Shown here one piece after another: positions 801-63,246 of a stretch of DNA of 64,000 nucleotides. The notes below the pieces were generated by a model. It searched no databases, had not been told where the DNA came from, and saw nothing but the letters and a program-made list of their open reading frames with translations. The first letter of the stretch is position 1. Every line of letters starts with the position of its first letter. The position numbers and the translations under genes are program-made. This DNA comes from Pseudeuparius sepicola (taxonomy: Eukaryota > Arthropoda > Insecta > Coleoptera > Anthribidae). The stretch covers positions 34,658,365 to 34,722,364 of the forward strand of contig OY987304.1 of assembly GCA_963920635.1 (NCBI GenBank), given 5' to 3'.

Positions 801-1612
801 GTGCGCGAAGGAAGTCTTACTGAAATGTAGTGTTTTAATACCCAAATGTATTCATTTATTTGTATTTTCCTTACATAACTCCTTTTATATGAATGCATTT
901 AACGAGGAGAAGAAAAGACTAACCTAGTGTTCATCAAACCTTTGAAATTAAATCAACTTTGCACCAACTTGACATAATTTTTTAAACCAAATAGAGATTT
1001 TCTAAGAAAGCTACTGGCTAGAATTAGAATTGACGTTAAAAGTGTAATAAAGATGTCGATCTGTCAAAAAATTACAACTTTTAATAAATAAGTAAATAAA
1101 TAAAATGTTTGGAAGAATTTTTTTAGAAAAACCTGCAATAAACAAATAATGTCATCATGGGTATCTGAAAATTAGTACGTAGGCCATCAATTACAGAAGA
1201 AACAACTTTTCCTAATAACTTTTATCGAAAATGTGTCAAGTAAGTCGTTTTTGGATGATTTTTGAGAAAATGTCAATTTTGACAGATACCACCGTCATTT
1301 TTCATCCTCCGACAAGCACAAATCGATGGCACAATCAATATATCCCGGCTGGTCCTTCCCTGTTAATAATTTTATTTTTTTAGCCTTTAAAATCGGATTT
1401 GGCACTAGCCTATATATATTCCTTCACTCAACGCTATACTCTGGAGTTCAGTTCAGAGGAAGGGTGCCAAGTTTCGACATTTTTATTTTTATCCTAAGTA
1501 TTATTTATTGTTATTTCCTTTTTGAAATTTTTGTCTAAAAATACAAAGAATAAATTAATTTGCAAAACAGTTGTGCTTGTCGCATCGTCTTTACCTATTT
1601 TTATCTTGGTTA
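801..1612. other. Intergenic, nothing recognised
   Basis: AT-rich sequence with one 70-codon open frame at 1326-1538 that resembles no family known to me and has no splice or codon pattern supporting it. Confidence 0.5.
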
Positions 1613-19400: not shown

Positions 19401-22400
19401 CGTTTCTGAACAGGCTGCCAATGAGAAGTATGCAAGTTCTTATTATGAAAATGCTGAAAAAAAGATGGCAGACCTTTCACGCATATCCAAGTACTGTTTA
19501 AATTGAATGTTATTTAATCATTTAAACGAGTTATTTGATGTAAAGTGTATTGGACATGCGCAAACGGTATGCCATCTTTTCTTCAGCAGTTTCATAACAA
19601 GAACTTGCATACTTCTCATTGGCAACCTGTTCAGAAACGTGGAAAAATTAATTATTAAAATACAAGATCACGTGGCAATAATAGCCCTTTGGACCCACCC
19701 TAACGGTATGCCTATGGTTTTCCGAGGAATTTTCTATTTTGAACTTCATTATAAAACACATGGCAGCCTGACTAAAATCATATCAAAACGCATATTTTTC
19801 GAATAATTGAAAACTCAGTTTTTCACATGAAGAACCCAGGATGACTCTCTGATTCATACCTTATTATTGTGAGAATATGTGCCCCATAATGCCCTTTGCA
19901 AGGCATACTGAGTAAAATCACGTCCAAAAATCTGTCACTATCTCCCGGTCCATAAATATGCGCAATATAATGTAGCTGAGTATTGGTTTTTTGAAAAACC
20001 AATCGGATTCCATATGAAAGCATCATCATTACATTAAACTGGAGTTCGAAACACGAGTGAGCAAGTTTCCAAATGACACTATAGCCTATGCCTTAATTAT
20101 ACACCACTCATTTTTAACTTACAACATTTACGATGGTACGGTAAATACTGGAGCCCAGTATTAATTTTTTATGTATTTTTTATTTATTCCTATTTTTAAA
20201 TACTTATATTGTAATGGACTCGTATTATTAATAAATAATTATAACATTTTTTTTAGTGCATTATTTGCATACCAACCTCCAAACAAAATAAAGGCATTTA
20301 AATCATAATTTTATTTAATATACCTACCTAACTTCCTGAACCATTCATATTTAGAAACTTTTTAAAGATCAATTCTAAAGGGTAGGTATGTCATTTTGTA
20401 CACCTCTCCCCTACTTATTATTATTATATGTATACTACTCGCCGTTTTGATCTTAGTTTCGAAACCTCTTTTTTAATTTTTATCACTGGCATATATGTAA
20501 TAATAATTTATTATTTCAGGAACAACATGGACCCAAGAAATGGTTTGGTTAATAGCCAATGATTTGAATTATAAACGAGCTTCAAAAATTTCTCTAAATG
20601 CAAGATTTCCATTCTTAGAGTAAGAAAAACTTATACAGTGTGTCCCATTCAAGGGTCACTTCCCTACAATTTTTATTTCTGCGTCGATTTTGAAAACCTT
20701 TTTTTTAGATAGCTGTATAAAAATGGCATTCAATGCACCATTCGATCTTTTAGACAACCAAATACATGGCCAACTGGAATCACTTCCAATAAACATTTTT
20801 CGTTATCACAAGTGATACCTGCGTATACAGTGTCCTCCAAAACGTTCGCACCATAGGGGGAAGGTTTTTAATTAATGATTTATTTTTAAATTTAACTTTT
20901 TGGTTACCTTTTACATTAAATATAATTACCACAGAAAATATACCGTATATTTTCTGTGATAATTACATTTAAAAAATAAAATCGCTCAAAAAGTTTCACT
21001 TGAAAAAGTTGTTTCTTTTTCAATTTTACATAGGTGTACCAAATTTCAACGCTCTATTAAAACTTTTTGCCACTTTTTAATAAATTTGACCTTCCCGAAA
21101 ATTTTAAAAACTTGTAACTGCATAAAAACTACTTTATATCACTAGCTTTCATTCTATTCACTTTTTTTGCTATAAATACCGATAAAAATACCTATGTGTT
21201 TTTAAAATGAAAATTATATCGTTATGTTTGGTGCAAATTTGATGTAGGTACCATGAAGCAATTAGGGTAATAATATCACTACTTCACGTAGGTACCTAAC
21301 CAAAATTCAGGACTTTTTACGGGACAATTTACTTACCTTACATCTTAATTATATTATTTTAGCTTTAGCACATGCAGTGACTGTTACCACAACATATATT
21401 TATATAAACATGTTTGTATAAAACTAAGATTTCAGTAAAGGTATATATTTAAGTGATCCTAAACATGAATCCGTCCACACTTCTGTTATAAAAAAATTTC
21501 TAATTGCACTTATTGCTATTTGGACCCCTTTAAAAGTTATCGGAGTTGGCCATGTATGGTTTAAATTAATTGAATGGTCCATCAACTATGCCCATGATAT
21601 GCCACTATTAGAGAGGTATCTATAACTATCTAACAAAAAAGTTTAGCTTATTAGGTAGGGGGAAGTGGGCAACAGTGAAACAATGTCTACGGTGAAACAC
21701 TAGTGGTTGGTAATAGTTGGTAATCAGAATGAATATTTAGTGTCCCCATTATAATTTTAAAAGAAATGGCTTGTGGCATATGGGACAAAATGCTTTGGTA
21801 ATTGGCAACACCAAACTAGTTTCCAATATCTAATGGAAATTGTGTATGGGTCGATATATATACACACTCACATTGCTTTGGTTTTGGCAGTACCAGCTAG
21901 ATGGCGTTGGATAGTAAATGCTCACCGCATTATACTAGTTCCTTTTCCACTAAGCCAACGTGTTTGGGTCTTTTCGGCTGAGGTGCGCTACGTCTGCCTG
22001 ATGAGGGCCAACAAGCCCGAAACAGGTACCTGTCGTGGTCTGCACACCTCCGAAAGACCCATACACAATTTCCATTAGATATTGGAAACTAGTTTGGTGT
22101 TGCCAATTACCAAAGCATTTTGTCCCATATGCCACAAGCCATTTCTTTTATAGTTGGTAATTGTCACCTGATACATAATTTGTAGCAGTCGATTAATGTT
22201 TTCGGTAGTAGGTACAAGTATTTTTGGTCCTAGTAAAAATAAGTGGGATTTAAGGTAAGATTTTTTTAACATTGATATTGCAAAAGTAATACGATAATAA
22301 ATTATTGCTGCTTTGATTTTTCGGAAGTTTTAAACATTTGTTAACATAACCTAGAGACCATTTTTGTTCAATTGTATAATATTCAATTTCTGCGGGATTT

Positions 22401-25400
22401 TATAGCATTTGAGTGCAATATACACACTGAAACACACTACGGAAAGGTACACAGTGAAACGTTTCATTGTGTACTTTTCCGTTTCACTATAGGTATACTT
22501 TTTCCAACTCGATTTGATTTTTGCAGGGGGGCGAGAAAACCAAAACCTAGGAAAATAGACAATGCTTTAGGCACCTATATACCCCCGGTTATGATTTTCC
22601 CCAGAAAAAAAAATTAAAGAGAACATGCTGAAGGGTGGCTTTGCAGGAACTCTTGGTCTGGCCTCCTCTTCAGGTTGGATGAACTCTGAGTAGTTTGCTT
22701 CTGTAATGGATCACTTCATTAAACACACAGGAAGCAGTAAAAATTCAGGAGTGCTCATATTGGCATTGCCTCCATATATACTAGCAATAAAACACAACCT
22801 CTTATTGCCTCTTGATGACTCTATATTTGCCTCTTTCAAAGAATTTGGTTGAATTATTGTTTTTCTTGCTTATTAAATAGATGTTTACAAATATATCTTA
22901 CTGTGTACCAGTTTTCGTTTCACTGTGTATCATACAATTTTTTTATAGTATATTTCCTAACAAGTGCGGAAAGTGCCACTTTTCCGCACGCGATTGCAGT
23001 TGGCTGAACGACGCGTAGCGGAGTTCAGCCAAGAAATCGAGTGTGGAAAAGACACTTTCCGCAAGAGTGGAACACTATTTTTTCTACAAGCGTGCGGAAA
23101 AGTATACACTTTTCCGCATGGAAAGCGTGCGGAAAAGTATACACTTTTCCGCACGCATTTACTTTTCCGCACGCATTTTAGTTTAGAAAGTGTAACTAAC
23201 TGTACGTTTCCGCACGCTTGTAGAAAAAAATATTAATAAAAATTTTATTTCTTGAAAATTGTTTTTTTGTGTAAGTACAGATAAATTGAAACAGAAAACC
23301 TGCATAATGTTTCCGGTTCAAAAACATATTAGCGTTGAGTGAGGGAATATTCCCTCACTCAACGATATTAGATAAACCATAAAGATATGTAGGTAGACCA
23401 TATAAGTTACGTGTGATAAAATAAAAATTGTTTCACTGTTGCCCACTCTCCCCTACCCCTAAAAGTGGGACACACTGTACTTACCTAGCCACCTATATTA
23501 TCTATAGAAAGATCACAAATATATAACACTTATATTACACATTAAACCTTTTCATTATAGATTTAGTTGTTTCGTTCATAAAGACACCAAAGCCGAAATC
23601 TTAGCCGAAAATATTTTAGATCTAAAGAAATACAGAGCTGTCCAGGAAATCGATGTTCCTGCTTGGAAAATCTTTGCGAAATCTACAAATAGGAGATTTA
23701 TAAAAACTCATTTGCCATTTAGTTTGTTACCTCCAAATCTGTTAGAGGTAGGATGCAAAGTAAGTATTGTATATGTGTATTTTCATTTTCCATATTTGCT
23801 AATGTTTATTCTGGCCTTTCCTCAACATCGAAGGCCTGTCTCTGTTTGTTCGCCTTGCTTGACATTAAAACTAACTGGCCCTGTGGCGCAACGGATAACG
23901 CGTCTGACTACGGATCAGAAGATTCCAGGTTCGAATCCTGGCAGGGTCGATTAATTTTTATTGTTTTTTTATTTTACTTTTGATTACTTTTAGGTGATTT
24001 ACGTTGCAAGAAATCCTAAAGACGTTGCGGTCTCGTTTTACCATCTAAACAGGTCAATTAGAACTCAGGGATATGTGGGAGATTTTGCCAGATATTGGAA
24101 TTATTTCCAAAGAAATTTACGTAAGCTGCAGTTTGAGACATCTCTGGCGATTTTTCTATCTATTCCTCGTTTCAGAACCTTGGACACCGTATTGGGAGCA
24201 TCTTAAGGAAGGGTGGGATCGAAGAAATTGTGATAATGCCTTGTTTCTGTTTTATGAAAATATGATAAACGTGAGGACAGGAAAAAATTTAGAGGGTGGT
24301 CTATATTCGCACCTTGGGCTTATTATGATAAAACGAAAAAAGCCGTCATAGGCGCTGTAAAAGTTTTTGGTAACCTTTTAGACGTAGCCATTTTCCCATA
24401 TTTTGTTTAGTTTAAAAAAAATACAGTTGTGTATCACTTTCACATTACTTTCTTTCTCTTGTTTCTATAATTTAGTAGGTACTTCAAATGACCTGCATCA
24501 AATTTTTGGAAGTTTATATTTTCCATGGCCTACTATACCTAATTAAAATAAGACCCCAAAAATGACGAAATATTAAGTAGGTATATTATATATAATTATT
24601 GTTTTTGTTTTACCATAACTCAAAACTATAAACTTTTTTTTGTTGGATAGAGCTTCAAAAATTGCATTAAATGTATAATTCAGGTACCTCGTGCCTTAAA
24701 TTCATGGCCCACTGAGACGGTTTTTTAGTGCTGAAATTTCGAAAAGTACTATTAGGGATTTTTTTACAGGAAAATCAATGCCGGATTCTTATTCAGCGTT
24801 GTTCGAAACCCAAACGTACCAATTTGCATTACCATAGCTCTACAGGGTGTTTCAACATTTTCAGTGTCCGACTTAATTAGTGACCACCCCTATAAAAAAT
24901 TTTTTAGCACAATTTCATAAACTTTTTTTTGTTGGATAGAGCTTCAATAATGGCATTAAATGCATAATTCAGGTGCCTCGTGCGTTACATTCATGGCCCA
25001 CTGAGACGAAGTTTTAGTGCTGAAATTTCGAGAAGTACTATTAGGGACTTTTTTAGAGAAAAATTAATGCTAGATTTTTATTCAACGTTGTTGGAAACCC
25101 AAACGTACCAATTTGCATTAGAAAATGGAGGACTAATTGAAATGACTGAAATTTGAGTTTATGTTAAGTAGGTATGTTGTGTTGTTTATATTCATGTATT
25201 TGATGATATTAAATTAAATAAAAAAATTGTCCGCTAATAAATCTTTGAAAGAATATGAGTTCCTCATGAATATTTTAGTGACCAACTTACCAGAAATTAA
25301 GAAAATTAATTACAAATTAGTACGTTTTTGTTTGGAACCTCTCACTGCATATAAGAATCTGGCCTTACTTTTCCTTTTAATTTTTTTGGAACACCCTGTG

Positions 25401-28400
25401 GAGCTATGGTAATGCAAATTGGTACGTTTGGGTTTCCAACAACGCTGAACAAAAAACCGGCATTAATTTTCCTCTAAAAAATCCCTAATAGTATTTCTGG
25501 AAATTTCATCACTAAAACACCGTCTCAGTGGGCCATGAATTTAACGCACGAGGCACCTGAATTGTGCATTTAATGCCATTTTTAAAGCTCTACCCAACAA
25601 AAAAAAGTTTATGAAAATCGAGCTATAAATAAAAATTTTACGGGGGTGGTCAGCCCTTAAGTGTGGCAATAAAAATTTTGAGACTTCCTGTAGAGCTACG
25701 GCAATGCAAATTGGTACGTTTGGGTTTCGAACAATGATGAATTCAGAACTGAGCCTTTTGTGAGGTATTATTCCTTGGGTCATAGGTTGCCATGGAAGAC
25801 AAATGCCAAATTGTAGTAATAATTATTGACAGTTTGCAAGTATATTCACGCTTTGGAAAACAAAATGGGCTATTTTAAGACTTCGGAGAAAAATTAAGAA
25901 GGGAAACTGTGTGAACAATAGGAAGTAGGTATTTTAAAAAGATTTTTCTATTCATGGATTAAGTTTCACGTAAAATATTAATTCCTGTAGTCCCGTTGCC
26001 GTTGCTCTATCTTATACACAAAAAAATTAGAAAAATAAAAAATAAAACATTTTAGTTTTTATGCCTAAATAGGCTTTTTTGCGAAAAATCCATTAACAAC
26101 TAACACTCCGGAAAATCGGATTTTTGATATTTTTACATACAGAGTGTCTCACTTAAGAGTGAAACAACCTTATAACTTCTTTAATTCTTAACCGACCAGA
26201 ACGAAATTTTTACCAAAAGTAGATGGCATTGTTGCCTGCTTACTTCCAGAAAATTAGTCATATTATGATTTTTTTTTCAAAAAAAATGTACTAAAAGAAG
26301 TTGTTTAGGATCGACCCAGAACCCTAAATCCAAAATTTTGTCGAAATCAAAAAATTTTAATTACTTAACTTACTTATTTTAAAATGATTACTTTTTGAAA
26401 ACAACTTCAAAACTTCCATGGCACACTTTTCTAAACGCAGGAAATTCTTTAATTAAATTTAATTTTTTTATTTAATATTTTATTGATTTTGACAAAATTT
26501 TGAATTTAATGTTCTGGATCAATTCTGAACAACTTCTATTAGAAATTAAAAAAAAAGCCTAAATATTATTCAGGATTTTTAGCCTCTATGGCATCGCAGG
26601 TGGCTTTGACTTTGGAGTAGGCAACTATTTTTTTGGAAATAAGTACCTAGGCAACAATGCCATCTCCCTTTGGTAAAAATTTCGTTCTGGTCGGTTAAAA
26701 ATTAAAGAAGTTATAAGGTTATTTCACTATTAAGTGAGACACTCTGTGGACACCCTGGTAAGCTATGGTAGTGAAAAGCGGTATTTGGTTTTTTGGGGTA
26801 TGGCCAAACCAACTGCATTCGTTCTGTCCCTAAATGAATGCCTAACACTTTCGTCATTTTTTGGTACTATTATTATTTTAATCATAGTAGGTCATATGGA
26901 AAACGTAAATTTCCAAAAAAATATTTATATTATATTATATTAAAATTGTATTTTTGAGTGGTATAGAGGGAAAAAATTGAGAATAGCCCAACCGGTTAAA
27001 AATAATGAATGGTCTCGAGTTAAAGTGATACACACTGTGCCCTAGAAAAGAAGACCAACTCAATAACCGTAGTTTCTTGATGTCAAAATATGTCAAAACA
27101 CTTACCTATATTCAAAAATGCTTAAGCCTGGTTCATACAGCTTCTTTATCTTTTAATTTTTCTTTATCTTTAAGAAATATTAAATGTCATTGAATCGCAA
27201 AAATTGGTTTTTGGTTATACTTATTTCCGTGAATATTCTGAGATATTTTATGGTGTAGAATTTAATTTCCTTCATTTTTGTATCTTAGAAATCTGTCTTA
27301 AAAACCATTGTTTTCAAGACAGTTTTTTTGGGAATAAGATACGTGATTTCCAGAAGCGCGAGTTACTGGGAAAGAAAATTAGAAAACTATTAAAGTAATA
27401 ACACAACTCAATATCAGAAAAAAGTTGTTATAAACATGGGGTTCAAAATCGTTCATAAGAAATATACTAAGTGATTTTTATATTTGACATGTAACACATT
27501 GTAACGGTATCTTTGCTAAGAAAGATTTTCCCCTATTTTCTTTTCCTATAGTTACCCCAATGACGTAACCCATCTGGAAATCATGTAGGTATCTTATTCC
27601 AAAAACCCTGCATGTTTATCTCAAAAACAATGGTTTTTAAGACATAAATATCTAAGACACAAAACTTGAATAAAATTAAAATTCTGCTCCATAAAAATAT
27701 TTTGCAGACTCCTTAGACCTAATAGTTGGAGAATAATAGATCAAATGTCGCGATTTTAATTACTTTTTGAGTTAGAACAATGAGAACCAACTGGTCGAAA
27801 TGGATATAAATAATAATAACCTGAGTACCAAATCTCAACTCAATATCTCTCAAATTCACGAAAATAAGTATACTTACCTACCTGAAAACCGACTTTTAAA
27901 ATTCAACGGTAACCCCTTATATCTTTTAAACAATATTACCTATATGAGTATTTAAAAATCTTTTCATAAAAATGTTACCTTCAGGAGTGTCGAACAAATT
28001 ATTTCTGTAATAACATTCATTTGTGAAATTAACTTTTTAGTCATGTACTAATTAAAATTACTAATTACTAAGTACTAATTAAAATTTTCACATTTTCACA
28101 TGTCTGTGATTTCTTTGAAAATTACATTTTATTATACAATATTTTCTTTATTACTATACTCATAGTAAATAAAACTTTTATAAGACTTTCTTGGTACACC
28201 AGACGTATAATATTATTTGCATTCATACACCCGTATATAGGGTGACCCAGAAAAGAAGTTCAACCCATTAACCGCACATTCTTGATGTCAAAATATGGCG
28301 ATGTAACCACCACTTACCTATGTAAAAATGCTACCCTTAATTTTGCCTTAAACCGCAATTATTTCGCAAGCAAGGCAACAGCCCGTTTTAACCCCTCGAT

Positions 28401-31359
28401 TTTCTCCTAAACATCCACCTTCCCCTAGCTTCAACCTGATTTCCTCATGCTATGCTAGGTCCATCCTGTTCAATCATCGAAGGTTTCACGTTTCACCTCA
28501 ATTATCTTTGATCTAAGGTTTACACCCTGTATAGATAAGCAATACAATATTCGAAAATTTCAGTTTTAATACCCATTTCTTAGTAAGTTTTAAAATGAAA
28601 TGGTTTTTCCTCATAACTCATGCTTTTATTAAAAAATTAAAGAATAATATCCACGTTCGTCACGACGTCCAGCGATGCTTGCCAATTTTCTGTGGTTTTG
28701 CCAATAACCCTTCCCTATCACGTCCCATTTAGTAACCATAAAGAAGAATTATATTTTTTACTTTTTGTTTTCCCATAATAAGCCCAGAGCGCAATATTTG
28801 GATCACCCGGTAGTCGGTGTACCTTAAAGCGTTGAGTGAGGAATTCACTTAACGCTTAAAGCCTAAAGATTAGTAGTAGGTACCGGGTTACCCCAGTTTG
28901 GGTTGCTTATGCCTATATATGTACCAGTGTGTCCCAATTTGATACGGGACACCTCAGAACTATATGAAGGACAGGGAAAACAAATGGTCTCTATTTTTTT
29001 ACTGGTAGTCCCAAGGGAGAGTATCACATAGTCGGCGGTATTTGCATGGGGTAATTATTTCATGGCCTGCTATGTTTTTTTAAAATAGCTAATTTTCAAG
29101 AAACCCTATTAGGGATTTTTTTACGACAAAATGTCATAAAGAAAACTTGTTCAGAATGAAAAACTGAGTAGAACTGCGAAATTTCAAAAGTCTAGGCCTA
29201 CTTTAATTTTTAGCTTTTTCGCCCTTTTCTCCCTCTTTTTTCTTAGAAATGTGTCTTTTCTGGAGCTTTCACGTCAAAATATTATTAAGGAAACTTGATC
29301 ATCGTGAAAAAATAAAATTTTGACGTATAAGCTCCAGAAAGACACTTTTCTAAGATAAAAGTGCGAGATAAATCTAAAAATTAAAGTAGGCCTAGCCTTT
29401 TGAAATTTTGCGAGTCTACTCAGTTTTTCATTCTGAACAAGTTTTCCTAATAACATTTTCTTGTAAAAAAATCCCCAAGGGGGATTCCTGAAAATTTGCT
29501 ATTTTAAAAAATCATAGCAGGCCATGAAATAATTACCCCATCCAAATACCACCGCCTATGAGATACTCTCCCTTGGTACTACCAATAAAAAAAATAGAGA
29601 CCATTTGTTTTCCTTGCCCTTCATATATTTCTGAGGTGTCCAGTACCAAATTGGGACACACTGTAGGTACCACCAATAGAAAAAAATGTTCACCTTTCGA
29701 GAAAAAGTCATTCTCCATAATAAAAAATGCTCATAAAACCCTGAAAAATAAAGGTATTGGTAAAAAAATTACGTTTCTTGTATATTTGTTTTTTGTTTTA
29801 TGAAAAATAACTACAACCTATTTAATTTTTTTTCTTTTTTAATATATTGCACTTAAAGAGCTCTAGCAAAGTTTACAGAATAAAAATATTCTGTAAACTT
29901 TGGCTCTAGGTACTTACTCAGTGCAGCATTTCTTATTTAAGCCCTTTGCATGGCCTGCTATGATATAAAACGTAACCCCAAAAATGGCCAAATCCTATTT
30001 GGATTTTTTTAAAGAAAAGAACTTATTGTCCAATCGATTCAGCCATGCTTAAAAACCCTTATACCAAGTTTCAAAGTTGCATCTTATACAGAGCGTTTAT
30101 AATTTAGGTGCAAATTTCGAAAAATGCCAATGTTTGCGGGTACCTACCTATTAACAGGATAAAATATTTTATTGATATTTTTTTCTTTCGATAGAGGTGT
30201 ACTACGGCTTTGAAATAGCACTATTTTGTATTAGCGTAGTTAATAAAAAGTCGAATTTAAGGAAAATAAATTACCTAAACTGAAGATAACAACTAACAAC
30301 AAAATAACCAAGTATCTCTAAATTGTCGTATTTTCTATTATCCCTCCTTCAACTTGAATACATTTTTCTAATCTTCTTTGGCAACTGGCTAAGGTAATGA
30401 GCCATTGCCAAAAAAGATGTATTCAAGTTGAAGGAGGGACAATAGAAAATACTAAAATTTAGACATATTTGGTTATTTGGTTGTTAGTTGTTATGTTCAG
30501 TTTAATTTCTTTTGTTAAAAATAAACGAAGAAAAACCGATATTTCAATAAATTTTACTTTTTATTACGAATGCCCTGTATTAACTAGGCCAATAAAAATA
30601 GTGCAATTTCAAAGCCGTAGTACAGCTTTATCTAAAGAAAAAAATCACTAAAATGTTTTATTCTGTTAATACAGGGTGCCCGCAAACATTGGTATTTTTC
30701 GAAATTTGCGCACCTAAATTTTAAACACGCTGTATAAGATGCAACTTTGAAACTTGGTATTAAGGGTTTTGATGCATGGCTAAATCGATTGGACAATTTT
30801 TTTTTCTTTAAAAAATGCCTAATAAGATTTCGCAATTTTTGGGGTTAGTAGAGTAGAGCTCTTTAAGTTCAATGTACTCAAAAAGAAAATAATTAAATCG
30901 GTTGTTCCGTTAAAAAATACCGATGCAAGAAATTTTTGTATGACGACTGGTTTTTTTTTCGAAAATTGAAAATGTTTGCCATGTTGTGGTATAAGCAACC
31001 CAAACTGGGGATACCCTATATAAAATAATATCAATATATTTTTTTAGAATACAACGGCCAGCATTCAACAAGTTTGTGAATTCTTGGGAAAGTCATACAC
31101 AAATGATCAAATAGGCACTCTTAAAAGTCACTTAGAGTTTGAAAATTTCAAGAGAAATTCGTCTGTTAACGGTGAAGAGCTGAGGGAACTGGGAATTTTA
31201 AGGAAAAATGAAGAAGGGTTTGTCAGAAAAGGAGAAAATGACAATTGGAGAAACTATTTTGACGAAGAATTAAATAAGAAAGCAGACGACTGGATTGAAA
31301 AGAATTTACAGCATACGGATTTACGATTTCCGGGACAAAAAGTTATACTTAAGTTATAA
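12264..31359 (+). CDS. Cytosolic sulfotransferase, 7 coding exons
   Basis: Exons: 12264-12417, 14777-14911, 20520-20619, 23561-23759, 23994-24120, 24176-24270, 31048-31359. All are GT-AG with matching phases and encode 373 aa. The enzyme transfers sulfate from PAPS to small hydroxylated substrates. Motifs seen: the 5'-phosphosulfate loop PRSGTTW (aa about 93-99), KTHLP with the catalytic-type His near aa 180, the 3'-phosphate motif YVARNPKDVAVSFYHL (aa about 199-214), and the C-terminal FVRKGENDNW (RKG near 330). The first ATG in frame is 12174 (403 aa). I chose 12264 because family members start shortly before the EIN-KID-K-NAELL segment, but even this N-terminus is about 30 aa longer than usual. 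Introns 2, 3 and 6 are TE-filled (3-7 kb), while intron 5 is 55 bp. The substrate is not predictable from sequence. Confidence 0.92.
13104..13154. repeat. 26-bp tandem duplication
   Basis: TCTCTAACACCATTTTAGAA and its extension occur twice in direct succession in intron 1 of the sulfotransferase gene. Confidence 0.8.
13425..13990. repeat. Two-unit tandem duplication of about 280 bp
   Basis: Unit 1 (13425-13719) and unit 2 (13720-13990) share AAGTGATAATGG, GTGTAACATTAACC, CAACAAATGAAGT, TTTGCAGCTTCAGTCAGCAC and GCCACGGAGGCTGCTAAAGC, with small indels between. Open frames across each unit shift relative to one another, so coding is not supported. It may be part of a satellite-like family. Confidence 0.8.
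14000..14332. mobile_element. 333-bp TTAA-site MITE with foldback arms
   Basis: Flanked on both sides by TTAA (13996-13999 and 14333-14336). The ends GACGGGGTTGACGACAG and, reversed, GAGGGGGGTTGCCGACAG are followed by GAAAGTGACGTTAGATTTC or a close variant. The arms pair almost to the centre. TTAA duplication is typical of piggyBac and Kolobok elements. No transposase is present. Confidence 0.82.
14912..16369. other. Sulfotransferase intron 2, left part
   Basis: No gene seen. A possible decayed element runs from CAGGGTGTATC near 15214 to a complementary GTGTCTCACCC near 15520, but the arms are too weak to assign. Confidence 0.4.
16370..16403. repeat. (TA)n microsatellite
   Basis: About 15 TA units immediately before a CAGTGTGTCCC foldback end. 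The foldback probably inserted into the microsatellite, which resumes as TATATA at its right end. Confidence 0.95.
16404..17297. mobile_element. 894-bp foldback element at a TA site
   Basis: The ends CAGTGTGTCCCAGGATTAGC are perfect inverted repeats and the arms pair for about 380 bp on each side of a loop near 16800-16900. TA flanks both ends. It holds the internal block CGACAAAATGTTATTAAAGA (16605 on) shared with the foldbacks at 28925 and 54437. No credible coding frame. Confidence 0.92.
17937..18179 (+). pseudogene. Unidentified coding-like remnant, possible retrocopy 3' end
   Basis: An 81-codon frame is interrupted by a single stop at 18063-18065. It reads like real protein: LEFAHFKTILPQRFSEELTQ in the first half, and WVPLEKLLLYVLKNEREIAM then PYGGIGKVEKHHYYV before the final stop. 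AATAAA and an A-rich stretch follow, as at the 3' end of a processed pseudogene. It lies in intron 2 of the sulfotransferase gene in the same orientation. I do not recognise the family. It could also be part of a retroelement. Confidence 0.4.
18255..18420 (-). repeat. Decayed hammerhead-bearing unit, second copy
   Basis: On the minus strand this matches the unit at 21980-22150. GAGGTGCGC is followed by CTGATGG (the last core base is changed from A), a weakened stem II, GAAA, CTGTC and GTGGTCTGCACACC, and then the ATATTGGAAACTAGTTTGGT arm. The core change and broken stem II suggest that it is inactive. Confidence 0.75.
18890..20030. mobile_element. Large foldback element, CCGGGAGATAGTGACAG family
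   Basis: Arms of about 400 bp pair between 19092 and 19946. Examples are GAGATAGTGACAGATTTTTG against its complement, GGTGGGTCCAAAGGGCTATT, and CCACGTGATCTTGTATTTTA. An extra 70-bp-arm hairpin (18926-19070) sits in the left flank. Weaker complementarity continues outward to ACCAATGCTCAACTC and its partner near 19990. No coding frame credible. Confidence 0.85.
20930..20958. repeat. 29-bp palindromic insertion with 8-bp duplication
   Basis: Arms CACAGAAAATATAC pair perfectly around one central base. The direct repeats ATAATTAC flank both sides exactly (20922-20929 and 20959-20966). One arm plus similar flanking bases recurs at 54218-54240 without the second arm. Confidence 0.75.
21758..22150. 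repeat. 95-bp perfect inverted repeats flanking the ribozyme region
   Basis: Arms 21758-21852 and 22056-22150 are identical in inverted orientation over all 95 bases. They contain GGCTTGTGGCATATGGGACA and CCAATATCTAATGGAAATTG. The 203-bp spacer holds the hammerhead core. Confidence 0.93.
21980..22050 (+). ncRNA. Hammerhead ribozyme, type I with short stem III
   Basis: Conserved core CTGATGA (21998-22004) is followed by stem II GGGC/GCCC with a 6-nt loop (22005-22018) and then GAAA (22019-22022). Stem III ACAGG/CCTGT closes on only two bases, and the cleavage triplet GTC ends at 22034. Stem I forms between 21980-21988 and 22042-22050 (AGGTG/CACCT plus GC pairs), with an internal loop and CG-rich pairs next to the core. 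All core bases expected of a self-cleaving hammerhead are present. The short stem III is like ribozymes of Penelope-like elements and retrozymes, which often act as dimers. Which element carries it here is inference. Confidence 0.85.
22448..22492. repeat. Long hairpin with GTGAAAC motif
   Basis: ACGGAAAGGTACACAGTGAA pairs with its downstream complement to form a 44-bp near-perfect palindrome centred on AACGTT. No flanking duplication seen. Confidence 0.8.
22970..23231. repeat. Array of GTGCGGAAAAGT palindromes
   Basis: At least eight copies of GTGCGGAAA or its complement form nested hairpins. Two complete 30-bp palindromes have arms CGTGCGGAAAAGTAT. An outer pair is CTACAAGCGTGCGGAAA with its complement at 23208-23228. 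The two overlapping open frames here (both strands) are by-products of the palindromy. Confidence 0.88.
23333..23364. repeat. 32-bp perfect palindrome with 7-bp duplication
   Basis: Arms CGTTGAGTGAGGGAAT form a perfect palindrome with no spacer. Exact direct repeats ATATTAG flank it (23326-23332 and 23365-23371). Same family as 28830-28854. Confidence 0.85.
23877..23949 (+). tRNA. tRNA-Arg (ACG)
   Basis: 73 nt. The acceptor stem GGCCCTG/CAGGGTC pairs (one G-U), the D-arm is GGCGCAACGGATAACGC, the anticodon arm TCTGA-CTACGGA-TCAGA carries ACG, and the T-arm CCAGG-TTCGAAT-CCTGG is perfect. The discriminator is G73. T-runs after 23950 can end Pol III transcription. It lies inside the 234-bp intron 4 of the sulfotransferase gene, in the same orientation. 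All canonical features are intact, so it is probably functional. Confidence 0.97.
24630..25735. mobile_element. Foldback cluster with repeated units
   Basis: A unit of about 210 bp (containing GTTGGATAGAGCTTCAA, CATGGCCCACTGAGACG and AACCCAAACGTACCAATTTG) occurs twice in forward orientation (24640-24850 and 24922-25120). It occurs once complete in reverse (25390-25610) and once in part (25684-25735). CAGGGTGTTTC and GGAACACCCTG mark internal junctions. No coding. Confidence 0.8.
25737..25910. repeat. Dispersed repeat, copy 2
   Basis: Copy of the 5630-5845 repeat, shorter by about 40 bp near its start. Confidence 0.7.
26140..26746. mobile_element. 607-bp foldback element, CAGAGTGTCTCAC ends
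   Basis: CAGAGTGTCTCACTTAA pairs with TTAAGTGAGACACTCTG. The arms continue with AACCGACCAGAACGAAATTT and AGATGGCATTGTTGCC and their complements. The left flank is TA, the right TG. Confidence 0.88.
26750..28828. other. Sulfotransferase intron 6, unassigned part
   Basis: AT-rich, with no exon between the exon ending 24270 and the one starting 31048. A GGGTGACCC-like word near 28240 and CACACTGTGCC near 27035 may be isolated foldback ends. Confidence 0.4.
28830..28854. repeat. 25-bp palindromic insertion with 7-bp duplication
   Basis: CGTTGAGTGAGGAATTC followed by ACTTAACG forms an imperfect palindrome. Exact direct repeats CTTAAAG flank it (28823-28829 and 28855-28861). Same arm sequence as 23333-23364. 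Confidence 0.8.
28925..29663. mobile_element. 739-bp foldback element, CAGTGTGTCCCAATTTG ends
   Basis: The ends CAGTGTGTCCCAATTTG pair with CAAATTGGGACACACTG. The arms pair nearly throughout (GGACACCTCAGAA, GACAGGGAAAACAAATGGTC, TTCATGGCCTGCTATG). It carries the shared block ACGACAAAATGTCATAAAGA (29123 on) and its complement near 29450. TA follows on the right. Confidence 0.92.
29841..30878. mobile_element. Foldback element near 30.3 kb
   Basis: Outer arms ACTTAAAGAGCTCTA and TAGAGCTCTTTAAGT. Inner arms include AACCCCAAAAATGGC, ATTTCGAAAAATGCCAATGT and GGTTATTTTG/ATTGTCCCTCCTTCAACTTG pairs around a loop near 30370. A 36-bp palindrome has inserted in its left arm only. Confidence 0.85.
29867..29902. 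repeat. 36-bp palindromic insertion with 7-bp duplication
   Basis: Arms CAAAGTTTACAGAATA pair around AAAA. Exact direct repeats GCTCTAG flank it (29860-29866 and 29903-29909). The opposite arm of the host foldback (about 30855-30865) shows the uninterrupted site, AGAGCTCTA. Confidence 0.9.
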
Positions 31360-31409
31360 TAATTCCTACGTTATAAGTTACGAATAATATGAACTGAACT
31401 GATTGATTA

Positions 31410-31415
31410 AATAAA
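31410..31415 (+). terminator. Candidate polyadenylation signal of the sulfotransferase gene
   Basis: AATAAA about 50 nt after the stop codon at 31357-31359. Confidence 0.5.
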
Positions 31416-31419
31416 TTCG

Positions 31420-32239
31420 GTAAATTTATCGCTGTAGTTTTATGCGGTTTGGAAAAAAGTTTATTTAATAATACATAGGTCCTACACATAGACTTTAAGC
31501 AAGGGTCCTACACATAGACTAAGTCTATGGTCCAACATAATTTGCATATGTAGGTAACTATAGTAAGTCCCATCCTTGTAAAATCTTTATTTGTTGACCG
31601 ATTTTGATAAACTTTTTTGTTAGGTAGGTTATTAAAATGCGCATTCAATGAGTATATAGGTACCTTTATTCTTGGGTTGTAATCATGGTCAACTACGTCC
31701 ACTTTTATTAACTCAAATTTCAAATAGTACTATTATTAGGGAGTTTTTAGACAAAAACAGACAACAGATTCTTATTATAAACGCCTACGCCGGTCCTGCC
31801 CTTAGAGGTGTTTATAAGGTCCTCGCTTCTCTCAAGGATGTCTGTTCGTATGTATGCGTAATTCTGTATATGTCCGTACGCTTTTTTCTTGACAGACAGG
31901 GCGCAGTTTTTTATTTTTAAAATCCAAATTTCGCGTGGACATTACGCCTGTAAAAGGGCATGATGCCTAGAGCCGTTCGGCCGTTTGGGCTAGTTTTCCG
32001 ATTTTGGAGTTCGCGGCAAAATTTGAATTTGACCAGGCGCCGGTCGAACCAGCGAGCATTGCCAGGTCTACTGGCATTTTACTAGTTGCTTTGATTTCAT
32101 CTTTGACCTATTGATCTGTACAGTAAAAAATATCAATAGTCCCAAGTGAGGGACTATTATCTCTACAACACTCATCCACTGAGTCACTGTGAGATCCTTC
32201 ATTATGGTATATAACCACATTGGATGCACGTTCTGTACA
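31420..32239. other. Intergenic, no gene seen
   Basis: Contains a short direct duplication of GGTCCTACACATAGACT (31478 and 31506) and a GC-richer stretch near 31930-32050. Nothing resembles a gene. Confidence 0.5.
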
Positions 32240-32490
32240 GTCGAGGATCTTATGTGAAAGCTATTTCGTCTAACTACTTGACCGTTATCTTTTTTGACTC
32301 TGTAAGATCTTGGAGTAGGCCATTTTTTTACAAAAGATTCTGGCCAAATTTGAGCCTCTCTCACAACTACATTTTTCCCTCTCACTAAATTCATTTTTAG
32401 GAGCTGAGTGCCTGTCAATAAAACATATAATTGTCTTTTATTGTTAAGTTTCTCCCTTTCATGGAAAAAATCAATTGTTTTCGATACCAA
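32240..32490 (-). pseudogene. Gypsy-type integrase C-terminal fragment
   Basis: The minus-strand frame contains VRGKNVVVRE followed by WPTPRSYRV and VVRRNSFHIR. This is the typical tail of Gypsy-class retrotransposon integrases (PRSY...RRN...HLR). No other part of the polyprotein and no paired LTRs were found nearby. It is an isolated remnant. Confidence 0.6.
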
Positions 32491-32538
32491 TAAATTTTGT
32501 GAAATTTGTAGTTTTATTCTAAGAAGTCTATTTTAAGG

Positions 32539-33290
32539 TCCTGATTTTTTATGGGGTGAGCATGGATAATGGTCTTAGTTACCGAATACAACAAGACGAA
32601 TAAAACAACAACAATAACCCTATAACCTATATATTTTGTGTACCTAACCCAGAGACCAGAGATATCTCTGACTCTGACCTAACCTCTGAGTCAGAGAAAT
32701 GGAGTAGGGAGAACGAGCTTTGACCTACTGCGCATCCTATTTCCCATATACCTGTATATTTAGGTATATGCTATTTCCAGGCAAATGTAATGTCCGGCAT
32801 ATTGTCCCCAGTTTGACGTTTGCAGTTTGTTTTCAGCGATAGTTGTTGTATTTTCAGCAGAGAAATGGCTTTTGTCGAAGCGATGTAGGTGCGCAGAAGA
32901 GTTTAATTTTCGTTCTCCTAGCTGGCATGCCGTTGTTATCTGTGGTTCGTGGTCGTATCCTGTGATCCTCGAGGCTACAGTCGGGGGAGGGCTCCCATAC
33001 AAGAGCTGGAGAATCGAAGATTATGAAAATATTGATCTCACAAGAGATAAGATACAATCAAGAAAGTCGAAAAAATTTGTATACCACCGTAGACAAAGCC
33101 GTATAATAATATCAATACTGAAGGGGATAAAAGTGGTATAAGTCAGACGTGCACTGCAGCTGCACGCCATTTTATATCCCGAACAAAAAAATAGTCCTGA
33201 TTTTTTTATGGGCTGAGCATGGATCAAGATCTGTTTACGGGTCTTGAGCATGGATAATGGTCGTAGCTACCGAATCCAACAAAAGGTAAA
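32539..33290. repeat. Pair of direct repeats with TGAGCATGGAT motif
   Basis: GTCCTGATTTTTTATGGG, TGAGCATGGATAATGGTC and ACCGAAT-CAACA occur at 32539-32610 and again at 33193-33290. The second copy carries an inserted internal duplication of TTGAGCATGGAT. The spacing of about 650 bp suggests terminal repeats of an old element or a simple duplication. The enclosed sequence has no recognised domain. Confidence 0.6.
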
Positions 33291-33613
33291 AGGAGGTCCG
33301 GAATTTTAAAACAACAACAACATACAGATCGTTGACAACAACCATGGTTTGTAGAGGTTCACTAACCTTGGCCAACAACAACAATCTACCTAACTTCAGA
33401 GCATATAATATGCTCTGCTAACTTCCCCTATTCTGTGACCATTGAGATAGTATGGGGGGGGGGGGGAGAAGCTGTCACGTGACCACAAACGGGAGCACCT
33501 TCGTCGCGTAGTTACTACTTTAGCGTCAGTTGGTTGTTCAGTGTTAAATGTGCAATTTTTGTGAGATATATTTTCTATTTTGAACTAAGTGTGTACAAAA
33601 AGTAATTAAAACA

Positions 33614-33693
33614 ATGGTGTCGTGCGCTGTACGGAGTTGTACGAGTAGGAATAATGTGGACAATAAGAAATCTACAGGAATAACATTTCACAG
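33614..33693 (+). pseudogene. Orphan first exon of a THAP zinc-finger protein
   Basis: ATG opens a 27-codon segment, MVSCAVRSCTSRN then ITFHR, ending at a GT donor (CACAG|GTAACAT). The spacing C-x-x-x-x-C and the TFHR ending before an intron match the start of THAP domains. No downstream THAP exon (W, C..H, AVPTIF-like) was found before the ASCC1 start. It is either the 5' piece of a gene truncated by rearrangement, a transposon-derived THAP exon, or an exon of a long gene reading past ASCC1. Confidence 0.55.
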
Positions 33694-33813
33694 GTAACAT
33701 AAGCAATAGACAAGGCCGCATTAATATAATTTATAATATCCACTTTGGTACTTTATGAAAAGAAAAATATTACCTTTATAACTACTCTAGGTATGTATAT
33801 GACTGACTGACTG

Positions 33814-33833
33814 ACTGACTAAACCCAGCTTTT
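33814..33833. repeat. (GACT)5 microsatellite
   Basis: Five perfect GACT units upstream of ASCC1. A G-run of about 12 lies near 33455. Confidence 0.9.
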
Positions 33834-34045
33834 GATTTCGTCGTTGTTAGTTCTCGTTTTTTTTTTACATTTTTTATAATTTTACTAGGAATACTGTTTA
33901 ATCAGGCCCTGGCGTGTCAGCCACATCGTTACTACTCTTAGCCACACCCCCTGATCCCATTTCTAACATACGGCGTAGTATCGTTATAGCGTCTCCCCCC
34001 TATACTACCTCAATTTCTGTGACCTAACCCTAACCTAAGAAAAAG

Positions 34046-37000
34046 ATGAATCATAACAAAGAATTCCCAGATTTTTTCACATCCAAGGACCCAATATCAA
34101 CCACTGTAACGCCCTTAAAATTCGGAAATGACACTTATTGGATGTGTAAGATTGCCAACGAAAATGAATCTGATACAACTCAACGAAAACTGTATTTGAA
34201 ACCATATGAAGACAACGATGAAGGAATTTTAGATTGCGGAGACATAGAAGACAGTTATGATATTGTTCTTACCAAGTCTGGAAGATTTATGACCAGTTTC
34301 TATGTACCTTCAAGTCTGCTTTCTTATATCGTTGGTGCAAAAGGGTCAAAACTAAAAAGCCTCCAGCGAAATACTGGGACGTTGATTAAAATCCCTAGAC
34401 CAAACGAAAAAGGCGATGTAAAGATTACTGGGGATACTGAAAGAAAGGTAGCTTCAGCTAGGACTCAAATATCAATGATTGTAATGCAAAGAAAGGATAG
34501 ATTGCCTGTGAGCCATTTTATTTCAATACCTATGAATACTGATAACATTAAACAAAAATTTGAAGAATTTAGAGAGAAAATACTAGCAAATCCACCAAGA
34601 GGAGTTACACCAACAATATTCCAAAAGGCTGATAAATTACATCTCACAATTTGTGTGTTAACTTTAGTTGATGAAGATGAATTAGCAACGGCCAAGAAAG
34701 TTCTAGAAACCTGCTATGAGGGATATATTTCACAATTGTTTGATAAGACTAAAAAGAAATATTTGACTGTTAAAGGTTGGTATTTTTCTTTAGGAAGTGG
34801 CTATTTATACGTCCGACGGATACAAACGTCAGTATACGTCTTGCGCTCTCATTGGCGGGCTGAGTCACGTGACTTCTTTGGATGTGCATTTAACTCCGCA
34901 CCCTTCCAAAGCCGAACTAAACTAATATTTAGATACGTCGGAAGTGCATTTTTCTCAAGCATCTTTGCAATAAGGAGCGTATGCCCTGCTCCTTTTTGGG
35001 GGATAGACGCTGCCGTATGAAAAAAGTAGTGGTAATAATTTCCAATGGTGTAACTCGCCCCCGATTTTCTTGAAATTTTGGCTAGGTAGGTACCCCGTAT
35101 TTTCGCCCGATGCGACGTTCGGCGTTGTAACACGAGTGTAACCAAAGCAACCAAAGTCAAAGTTTACAGAATAAAATATTCTGTAAACTTTGCCAAAGTC
35201 TAGGTGTAACCCGTGACCTGTTGTCTGCGCGAGTGAGTGAGCGAGAACATCCACCAAAGTAAAAGGTGGTAGAGAGGAGCTTTGGCGGTTTCCTCTTTCT
35301 CAACTTAATTTCCCCTATATAGTTCAAATTGTGTGTCTAATAAAAGTTGTCTGTGGGCAAAAGGCAGAATAGCAAAAACATAAGTCATGCTTTCATTGTT
35401 TGCGGAAAATTTTAAACTTAAAGGTAATTTGTTTACATTGGCATTTATTAAATTCAGTCTTTCCTATTTTGTAATGCATAATAAACAGTTTTTGATAGAC
35501 TTTTATATCGTATATAATGCTTTGAGATACTTATATTTACAAAATAACCTAAATCATATAAAAAAACTGGAAACATTGAATGTGCCAATAACATTTTTAA
35601 AATCATGAAACAAAAAAAGGTACCTTTGGTAATGTATCTAGGTATTCTTATATATCGTTGGGGATACCTTTGGTAAATTTTAGTTGTTTTTGCTTTTTGG
35701 GATTATTTTTTTTTTATTAAAATATAGACTAGAAAGAATGGTTGCGTTCAATGCAGTCCGAATTTTTGTAATCGCTAGGTAGCGCTATCTGTCAACCTTT
35801 GACAGCACTGTAATCGCTGCCGTGGTAAGTTGAACGACCAATTTAACTAGGTGTTTATGTATTTATTTTCGGTATTTTCTATTTTCGTTTTTAAAATAAC
35901 TTGATTATCTCTGTCGATATTTTACCATTTTGGCTAATTTTTATAATGACACCCAAAAAATAATAAACAACTAGGTATACAGAGTTGATAATACAAAAAG
36001 CAGTTATAACCACTTTTCCGCAATTGTCTCTTACAATTTCCCAACCTTCCATTTTTTTATTTATTTAAGTATTGCGTGAATAATTATTCTTTTTTGAAAA
36101 AATAACAAAATTAACGTTACATTTGCACTGATAACGTCGATGAGTTTTCAGGGCCCAGTTGCTTTTCAAGGCCAGTGAATCATCATTTGCTTATTCAAAT
36201 GGGGAACTTGCACAAAAATTAAATTTGAAAAATATTGCTTTCAAACGTAATTTATTGCCATTAAATGAACCACAGTTCACAAAAAAACTCATTTTTAATT
36301 TTTATGTAATAAATATAAGCAATTAAAAACTGCATAATTCAAATCATCCTTGTAACGCGCCCTCCTTGGTTGTGACGTCAAGTAGCTCTTTGGTGGTGGC
36401 GCCTCTGGTGGGCGGCGGCACCACTAATATGGGCGGCACATGTATAAAAACTACAGCACCACGCAAGCTTTGTTTAGAAAGATCAACGAGAACGTCCCAT
36501 CCTTGTCTATCCGTCTTATTATAGTCTTGATATTGTTGATAATGTTTGAAAAGAGTATGCTGTATTAAATAGTTATTTACATTGGGAGATGCGTAAGCGC
36601 ACTTTTTTGGCCAAGGAGGTTGTTTAACGCCCGCGTTGCCTCGGGTCTTAAAACTCTCCCCGAGGCCAAAAAGAGCTTACGCATCAAGCAATGCAATTTA
36701 ATATTAGGTACGTAATTACTTTGAATTTAAATACACTATGGAGTAGATTGTGAGTAATAATCTTCATAATAGCCAATGTCCAATTATTACTAAAAATGAT
36801 AATTAGTGATAAATGTAAAAGGTAGAATGCAATGATAATTAAAAAAATTCTTGTGCGATTGAACCCGGGACCTACGAATTACTAGTCCCGTGGCCTTACC
36901 ACTCAGTTAAAGAAGTGTTAAATTTAAACTTTTAGGCGGTTCTTATTTTTGACCTACATCAGAGCCCTCTGGAAATAGGTTGCCGAACTGTCTATTTTAA

Positions 37001-37979
37001 TGTTCAATTTCCATTCTCCCTTCTCTAATTCTGTGTAGCTGTCACTCCTGTCACTATGCCTTCCAATCGATCGAGCGCTGTGACGTCACAACCATTCCCG
37101 CGCTTTTCGTATCGTTTCAAATGAATAGCTTGCGGTCACAACTTTAATTATTTATTGCAAATTAAATATCGCGATTTGAGGGCTGATATTTGGTATGTGC
37201 TCTTTCTATAGATAGGCAAATATATTAAAGAAATAAAAAAAAATTCAAGTTCCTCATTCAGGCACAGTCTAGCAAAGCTATCTATAGGTGTGTGCTACTA
37301 TCAACAATCTTGATCTACAATATTATGATCTTTGGTATGGTGGTATAAAGTTGAATTTTCTATTGTGACTCATTGGCAATAAAAAAGAGTAGGTAGGAAT
37401 CATGACACCATCGATATGTTTCCAACATACTTAGCCGATTGTTACACAAGACAGGTACTTTTGCACTGGCTTATTTGTTAAAAAAATAAAGTTTCTATTT
37501 TCTGCGATTTTTTAGAATAAATGATCACATTCAAAACTGTCCAGACATTTTTTAATGTGTGATGTCCATGTCCACACATGATTACCTAAATGTCTGGCAA
37601 CAATATGGTTAATTTATCTTATCTTTTAGGCTTGCAAATAATGAATGACGATCCGTCCGAAGTAAATGTACTCTATGGTTGTATAGAAATAGATAAAACT
37701 GGTGCCGAACTTCGAGAAATGGCTGATAAAATTACTGAATATTATTATAAAGCTGGTTTAGCTAGAAGAAATTATGACCAAGTTAAATTGCATTTAACTT
37801 TTATGAACACAAGCTTCAGGAATCAGGATGAAGAGAAAAGCAAGTTTGATGCAACGAACATTTTGCAAGAATTCCAAGATTTTTATTTTGGCCAAGTGGA
37901 ATTAACAAATATTCAATTGTCAGTTCGATTTACAACTGTTGATGATTATTATGAATCATCATTAAAGATTTCTTTATAA
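34046..37979 (+). CDS. ASCC1: ASCC1 homologue (KH and 2H-phosphoesterase domains), 2 coding exons
   Basis: Exons 34046-34775 and 37630-37979 join in phase 1 to give 359 aa, close to human ASCC1 isoforms. A KH domain carries the GxxG loop in YIVGAKGSK (aa about 94-102). The AKAP7-like 2H domain follows, with paired H-x-T motifs KLHLTICVL (His199) and KLHLTFMNT (His298), and the C-terminal DFYFGQVELTNIQLS. ASCC1 is a subunit of the activating signal cointegrator 1 complex, linked to ASCC3 helicase in transcription and alkylation-damage repair. The donor GTTGGT is non-consensus but phase and alignment require it. Reading past it gives a 324-aa frame that enters repeat DNA. The intron (2.85 kb) contains a TIR transposon with a nested SINE-like element and a 35-bp palindromic insertion. 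The start ATG follows a CTAACCCTAACC-like stretch. Confidence 0.93.
34793..34900. repeat. Repeat with GGCTATTTATACGTCC end, copy 1
   Basis: TAGGAAG-GGCTATTTATACG, CTTGCGCTCTCATTGGCG and ACTTCTTTGGA are shared with 63899-64000. It begins just inside the ASCC1 intron. Confidence 0.75.
35158..35192. repeat. 35-bp palindromic insertion with 7-bp duplication
   Basis: Same arms CAAAGTTTACAGAATA as 29867-29902, around AAA. Exact direct repeats CCAAAGT flank it (35151-35157 and 35193-35199). It lies in the ASCC1 intron. Confidence 0.9.
35424..35680. repeat. Dispersed repeat, uninterrupted copy
   Basis: Matches the flanks at 6095-6190 and 7260-7330, without the foldback found there. Confidence 0.7.
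36199..37257. mobile_element. Non-autonomous ATGGGGAACTTG-family transposon, copy 1
   Basis: The left end ATGGGGAACTTGCACAAAAA and right end CAAGTTCCTCAT form short inverted repeats. The body is nearly identical to 44764-45935 (GGTTGTGACGTCAAGTAGCT, TTTAGAAAGA-CAACGAGAA, CCTTCCAATCGATCGAGCG). A foreign segment, including a SINE-like element, interrupts it from about 36580 to 37060. It lies in the ASCC1 intron. Confidence 0.85.
36583..36935 (-). mobile_element. tRNA-headed SINE-like element with hairpin tail, copy 1
   Basis: On the minus strand a tRNA-like head near 36920-36845 has A-box TAACTGAGTGG and B-box GGTTCAATC. A body follows (TTACTCACAATCTACTCCA). The tail is a long imperfect hairpin whose arms are GATGCGTAAGCTC...TTTGGCC and GGCCAAAAAAGTGCGC-TTACGCATC. 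Same architecture at 63384-63775. Confidence 0.75.
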
Positions 37980-62861: not shown

Positions 62862-63246
62862 TACGGAAGCGCAGAGAGGCCACCTATGACAAAAAATGAC
62901 TTTTAACTCGAAATTATTCCAACTTTTAACTCAGAATTATTCGGAGTTGTAAGTCGGAATTCCGACATGTAACTCGGAATAATTCCGACTTGTAACTCGA
63001 AATAATTCCAACTTTTTCTTAGTATAATTCCGAGGTAAAAGTCGGAATTATTCTGAGTTACAAGTCGGAATTATTCCAAGTTACAAGTCGGAATTTCGAC
63101 TTAGAAGTCAGAATTCCGAGTTACATGTTGGAATTCCGACTTACAACTCGGAATTCTGAGTTGGAAGTCAGAATTCTGAGTTACAAGTCGGAATATAACG
63201 CCGAGAAATTTTTTTTTTGTCACAGGTGGCCTATCTGCGCTTCTGT
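62862..63246. mobile_element. Foldback element built of AAGTCGGAATTCCGA repeats
   Basis: The end repeats GGAAGCGCAGAGAGGCCACC and, reversed, GAAGCGCAGATAGGCCACCT enclose about 15 copies of a 20-bp self-complementary unit, roughly AAGTCGGAATTCCGAGTTAC (62907-63193). The direct repeats AGCAAGG (62855-62861 and 63247-63253) flank the whole as a 7-bp target duplication. Confidence 0.88.

Follow-up and report, generated by a model that had tools for sequence, protein, structure and literature searches.

Background

The closest described counterparts of the sites considered here are the footprints left by the P element of Drosophila. In the papers cited, P transposase cuts one strand 17 nucleotides (nt) inside the element (PMC7776569; PMC10983969), and the donor site is left with 3' overhangs of 17 nt (PMC2895639). 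Among the sequenced donor sites tabulated for P{w^a} end-joining junctions, 39 of 63 isolates (PMC2895639, Table 1) and 17 of 34 (PMC5466332, Table 1) have an interior of 18-44 base pairs (bp) and inverted arms no shorter than 7, the remaining isolates in these tables being mostly short joins without a palindrome. The same superfamily includes elements with differing target duplications, given as 8 bp for P, as 7 bp for 1360 (PMC3276498), and as 7 bp with a few of 8 for Galileo (PMC4168063). Against this background we analyzed a 64-kilobase (kb) stretch of the Pseudeuparius sepicola genome (C7:34658365-34722364 of a 769-Mb assembly in 16 contigs), hereafter the window, in which a first-pass annotation had reported five palindromes of 25-36 bp between exact 7-8 bp direct repeats and had interpreted them as mobilised units made of little more than two terminal repeats. 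The evidence makes it highly probable that longer cut-and-paste transposons, most likely members of the P superfamily, once occupied these sites and that the palindromes are the fossil footprints of their excision.

Palindromic sites in the window and across the genome

All five reported sites are indeed flanked by exact repeats (8, 7, 7, 7 and 7 bp in order of position). The palindromic design is well borne out at four of them, where 28 of 29, 32 of 32, 32 of 36 and 32 of 35 positions are self-complementary, and less so at 28830-28854, which is only partly palindromic because 18 of its 25 positions are self-complementary. A blind scan for interiors of 18-44 bp beginning with C and ending with G, with 7-nt inverted ends (at most one mismatch) between exact repeats of 7-9 bp, recovered 10 sites in the window, as against a mean of 0.05 in 100 block-Markov controls matched for composition (no site in 95 of these and one site in five). 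Nine of the 10 were retained, namely the five reported sites and four additional ones (Table 1), with interior lengths spanning 21-36; the tenth, 21252-21288, was dropped as weak on account of its short arms and of a repeat, TAGGTAC, resembling a common word whose occurrences were not counted. A census of perfect palindromes in the window (arm of at least 9, loop of at most 12, low-complexity arms removed) yielded 24, six of which have an exact 7-8 bp repeat directly at the arm ends and two more a repeat only once 3 nt are trimmed, the other 16 having 0-3 bp. The two arm families said to occur twice each in the window do so.

Outside the window, 29 stretches of contig C1 totalling 290 kb (numbered with the prefix L) contain 12 sites of the same design, compared to 0.46 in 24 controls, with one of the 12 (L016 3008) looking weak. 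The sample includes relatives of the window families at different places: the CACAGAAAATATAC family recurs at L014 16854-16904 with a 7-bp repeat and at L028 18243-18272 with no clear duplication, the CGTTGAGTGAGGGAATA family at L006 7697-7728 (repeat CTCGTAC) and the CAAAGATCATG family at L006 9418-9445 (repeat GTAGTAC). Genome-wide, the CAAAGTTTACAGAATA (CAAAG) palindrome with a spacer of 0-10 is present in 112 exact copies and its reversed-pattern control in none; the same palindrome gave no match in one scan of viral contigs. Flanks were examined for 40 of these copies, with an exact 7-bp duplication in 27 and one with at most one mismatch in 34, whereas mispaired flanks gave 15 exact and 32 near-exact matches in 1560 pairings. 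A second palindrome family, CTGGACC, which is not seen in the window, has 234 copies with a spacer of 0-12 (control 0); among 20 with flanks examined, the duplication is exact in 11 and near-exact in 14, compared to 0 and 8 of 380 mispaired flanks. The sites are thus mostly unrelated in their surroundings, as had been claimed, with most of the 60 flanks examined bearing no relation to one another, the exception being a dispersed repeat around window site 35158 that also flanks five of the 40 CAAAG copies.

The insert at 33225 is cleanly absent from a paralogous stretch of the window (Table 1). The inverted partner arm near 30854 is a less clean case, for it lacks the insert of 29867 and also about 60 nt following it.

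Longer elements, truncated ends and variable junctions

Longer elements with the same ends, a search for which the first-pass annotation had suggested, were found for two families. A 476-bp element in L010 has CTGGACC ends and the duplication AATCTAC, and belongs to a repeat family with 41 matches (40 of 3376 first-look candidates scored). Its 25-bp terminal repeat was defined from the left ends of ten copies and one right end, nine other right-hand stretches stopping short of the element end. In the copy whose right end was reached, which is 880 bp long, the 25-bp inverted ends match at 23 of 25 positions between exact duplications CCCAAAG. The second case is a 1258-bp element (L008 9990-11247), with the ends of scar 33397 (CAGAGCATATAA) inside inverted repeats of at least 30 bp and duplications differing by one mismatch (ATAGTAC/ATATTAC); the scar retains only the outer part of this longer inverted repeat.

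The truncation was measured in the CTGGACC family by comparing 100 arms, from 50 listed scars of the 234, with the 25-bp terminal repeat. The arms that follow the repeat stop at 20 nt in 24 of 100, at 21 nt in one and at 22 nt in five, and none goes beyond; the final two letters of the 22-nt matches may belong to the opposite arm. Simply joining two tails no longer than 20 nt is enough to give 39 of the 50 scars, and the other 11 need extra or altered bases. In the CACAG family, two copies have, by eye, exactly 17 nt in common on one side. The centres are variable, with 23 kinds among the 50 CTGGACC scars and 12 among the 40 CAAAG copies, so that the common interior shared across copies of a miniature inverted-repeat transposable element (MITE) is not seen. 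Overlaps, blunt joins and templated filler are all present among the junctions. Inside a 54-bp CAAAG site in L016, the left duplication of that site plus tail recurs as an inverted copy of 20 nt, which is a signature of templated repair. Truncated arms together with this inner flank copy are expected from the end joining of staggered breaks and not from the insertion of a fixed unit, and the overlap of the scar interior lengths with those of the P{w^a} junctions likewise counts in favor of excision. A G/A difference between the element ends at position 8 was considered as a decisive sign and set aside, being striking in one pair and weak over the 50 scars.

At L026 19834-19864 a 31-bp palindrome with an 8-bp repeat has ends in common with a 527-bp CAGGGACTC element of the window (6711-7237), suggesting that similar scars are also left by a family whose duplications are 8 bp long. 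A further family, CGTTGACTGACGTA, comprises elements of several sizes from 86 to 180 bp with exact 7-bp duplications. In L006 (6086-6708 and 3875-6771) two palindromic sites adjoin longer elements with inverted ends and have the same duplication in common with them, the resulting order of repeat, scar, repeat, element and repeat appearing as if one target had been struck twice. A 2015-bp element in the same stretch looked P-like by eye, and three pieces of it gave no P family in Pfam.

P transposases are abundant in this genome. At least 150 P RNase-H-domain matches were scored, out of 1302 candidates, with open frames of up to 866 amino acids (aa), and the same search gave none in 14 control genomes of unstated kind. 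At one sampled locus, where the frames are broken, a THAP domain (E=9.7e-15) occurs together with a P RNase-H domain (E=1.1e-8). The duplications of 14 scars from the window and sample agree with the Galileo target motif GTANTAC at 3.29 of six positions on average, compared to 1.66 expected (0 of 20000 draws), the motif having been picked after some of the 14 had been seen.

Origin of the palindromes

Excision footprints are very likely, and their origin from the P superfamily is likely. In the proposed mechanism, an element would insert with duplication of 7 bp (8 or 9 in some families), and its transposase would later cut one strand exactly at the 3' ends of the element and the other about 17-20 nt inside, so that the outermost 17-20 nt of the terminal repeat would stay on each broken chromosome end as a single-stranded tail. 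Joining of these tails through short overlaps or a few filler bases would then yield a duplication, a tail, an inverted tail and a duplication, and the site 23333-23364 is consistent with two tails of 17 nt that share a 2-nt TA overlap. That a P transposase made the cuts, that the CAAAG and CGTTGAG families arose in the same way and which repair pathway joined the ends are what we infer. A more specific proposition is that, in a clade of the P superfamily, the cut lies about 20 nt inside the ends and not 17, and that tens of thousands of exit scars of this clade are kept; this we offer tentatively, at somewhat less than an even chance, and the figure of about 30,000 scars is a rough extrapolation from 12 sites in 290 kb of one contig.

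Several observations weigh against the excision of P-type elements as the source of these sites. Even a near-exact 7-bp duplication is missing in six of the 40 CAAAG copies and six of the 20 CTGGACC copies, that is, in 12 of the 60 examined, and the centre AAA is present in 16 of the 40 CAAAG copies, though the five with a common dispersed context are to be borne in mind. A search inside the window for longer elements bearing the arm sequences of its own scars found none, and neither the window nor the 290-kb sample yielded a longer CAAAG or CGTTGAG element, these being the families named in the first-pass annotation. The position-8 difference is kept in 18 of the 50 CTGGACC scars, with 31 A/A and one G/G pointing to near independent mixing of the arms. 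The CTGGACC search pattern, whose arms were fixed at 13 nt and whose spacer could not exceed 12 nt, could not detect scars above 38 bp or arm matches above 25, so that the limit of 20-22 nt is unproved; few scars are thought to have been lost to it, given that their lengths peak at 31-33 and drop to two of 50 at 38. On one side of the L026 site, 19 nt match the CAGGGACTC element, and the 27 CAAAG duplications do not clearly conform to GTANTAC (position 2: C 15, T 11; position 6: G 15, A 12). Finally, all ten exact window sites lie within 20.9-35.2 kb (14.3 kb), with the one-mismatch site 5681-5713 outside. This clustering is significant under uniform placement (p of about 4e-5 for the nine retained sites and 7e-4 for the seven strictest), if post hoc and unexplained. 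Five scar sites likewise lie within 3.4 kb at L006 6095-9445, and local hopping or a common target preference are possible causes of both clusters.

The same footprint mechanism might have operated in transposons of a different superfamily, one whose duplications measure 7-9 bp and whose stagger is long. The CAAGA type, with 9-bp duplications at all three of its sites (33225, L006 6095 and L010 10996), and the CTGGACC tail limit of about 20 nt, as opposed to 17 in Drosophila P, are difficulties for a P-type origin that would be accommodated by such a superfamily. So would the failure to find, among the sequences analyzed, an element that has these ends as well as a P transposase, no genome-wide link having been searched; the two stretches flanking the 866-aa P frame showed no terminal repeat. 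We nevertheless regard another superfamily as unlikely in view of the many P transposases, of duplications of 7 and 8 bp, which are P-superfamily lengths, and of the lean of some duplications towards the Galileo motif. The first-pass annotation had called a 7-bp duplication uncommon, yet it is the usual length for 1360 and Galileo in the reports cited above. Moreover, for Muta1, a Mutator-like element, the cited account of a yeast assay describes excision as precise in most cases where the duplication flanked the element; remnants of its ends, up to 13 bp long, were occasional and were reported for donor sites without a duplication (PMC5225508). A somewhat less probable source is the shrinkage of elements in place through aborted gap repair, as opposed to clean excision and end joining. 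That short derivatives exist is clear from the 54-bp and 51-bp relatives and the CGTTGACTGACGTA series, and longer ones would have been hidden by the CTGGACC pattern limit; however, such repair should often leave more than 20-22 nt of an end, and none of the 100 arms does so, though up to 25 was detectable.

The notion that palindromes of 25-36 bp are themselves mobile, being moved in trans as ultra-short elements, draws on their hundreds of copies, on the finding that 48 of the 60 copies examined are each flanked by a near-exact duplication and on the predominance of one centre in the CAAAG family. It is very unlikely, given the many different centres, the truncated terminal repeats of the CTGGACC scars and the flank copy inside one site, as well as the need of P elements for longer ends, given in the cited study as 138 and 216 bp in D. 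melanogaster and a little less than 100 bp for Anopheles P-MITEs (PMC1562414). What stands of the original proposal is that the sites are products of transposition with real duplications and two terminal repeats; it is the mobility of the tiny units that does not. There is next to no probability that the palindromes arose by chance or that they were copied as part of a single duplicated segment. The dispersed context common to 35158 and the five CAAAG copies is of the kind that the latter would predict, and both are refuted by the window, sample, reversed-pattern and mispaired-flank controls and by the unrelatedness of most flanks. Palindromes formed by hairpin opening during hAT-type excision derive from the flank, and footprints of this type were set aside on such general grounds as the arms here recur at unrelated sites. 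Excision footprints of longer transposons, probably of the P superfamily, therefore remain the preferred explanation.

Features of the window

The coordinates are collected in Table 1. The element at 33440-34015 is a candidate non-autonomous P-type element, and the short frame within it resembles a THAP-domain first exon, although its Pfam THAP score of 14.1 bits (E=0.081) falls short of the curated cut-off, 23.9. The two lone ends are possibly one-sided scars, which is suggestive only. Elsewhere, imperfect repeats rich in GGAATTCC, both inverted and tandem, form an array at 62898-63194, and a local TTTTCCGCACGC repeat array in both orientations at 22960-23229 includes palindromes with flanking repeats of a different design. 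KH and AKAP7-like domains were detected in frames 34046-35020 and 37590-37979, along with one tRNA.

Table 1. Coordinates of palindromic sites, interpreted as probable excision scars, and of associated features (window positions unless an L-number is given)
Feature	Position	Strand	Flanking repeat or remark
Scar, 29 bp, CACAGAAAATATAC family	20930-20958	.	ATAATTAC, 8 bp
Scar, 32 bp, CGTTGAGTGAGGGAATA family	23333-23364	.	ATATTAG
Scar, 25 bp, CGTTGAGTGAGGGAATA family	28830-28854	.	CTTAAAG; one arm shortened and altered
Scar, 36 bp, CAAAGTTTACAGAATA (CAAAG) family	29867-29902	.	GCTCTAG
Scar, 35 bp, CAAAGTTTACAGAATA (CAAAG) family	35158-35192	.	CCAAAGT; within dispersed repeat
Additional scar, 27 bp	32650-32676	.	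ACCTAACC; imperfect arms
Additional scar, 26 bp	32745-32770	.	CTATTTCC
Additional scar, 22 bp, CAAGA type	33225-33246	.	AGCATGGAT, 9 bp
Additional scar, 21 bp, CAGAGCATATAA family	33397-33417	.	CTAACTT
Probable older scar, 33 bp, CAAAGATCATG family	5681-5713	.	GTCATAG/GTCATTG, one mismatch
Paralogous stretch with empty site of 33225 insert	32538-32594	+	
Lone CGTTGAGTGAAGGAATA end, 17 nt	1417-1433	-	CTATATA / CTATACT
Lone CACAGAAAATATACCTA end	54220-54236	+	
Element, about 576 bp, terminal inverted repeat	33440-34015	.	TTCTGTGACC, direct repeat of 8-10 bp
Open frame, THAP-domain first-exon-like, 27 aa	33614-33694	+	inside 33440-34015 element
CGTTGACTGACGTA-family elements	L012 461-640; L014 5437-5522, 10535-10714; L003 3536-3686; L018 6055-6163		

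Implications and comparison with known systems

A cut-and-paste transposon that has departed normally goes unseen. Should P-type scars persist in readable form, departures could be counted alongside arrivals, and the cut position of an uncharacterised transposase might be read from sequence alone. The outcomes of end joining could likewise be compared across species without a laboratory break assay, the scars constituting a natural archive of the joining of chromosome breaks over evolutionary time. The case also cautions against taking every tiny palindrome between duplications for a tiny transposon.

In their 7-bp duplications, some of which lean to GTANTAC, the scars are akin to 1360 (Hoppel) and Galileo, a likeness of duplication length and, for Galileo, of motif. 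To our knowledge, both of these are known as inserted elements and not as scars. Genome-wide P scars are not described in the titles and abstract openings of the literature searched. The P-MITEs of Anopheles gambiae, which in the cited study are P-type elements of a non-autonomous kind, are comparable in being short and in having inverted ends between exact duplications; they differ in having 8-bp duplications and a larger size, the scars here being far shorter than two such ends (PMC1562414). The closest resemblance is to the Drosophila P footprints, which in the junctions tabulated show the same succession of duplication, outer tail of the terminal repeat, short overlap or filler, inverted tail and duplication, with interiors of 30-36 bp being common among them. 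Those footprints come from laboratory crosses and have 8-bp duplications and 17-nt tails, whereas the scars described here stand in an assembled genome, where two families number 112 and 234 copies, and have duplications of 7, 8 or 9 bp and, in one family, tails of about 20 nt. The kind of footprint is thus already known; its scale is new, as perhaps is the position of the cut.

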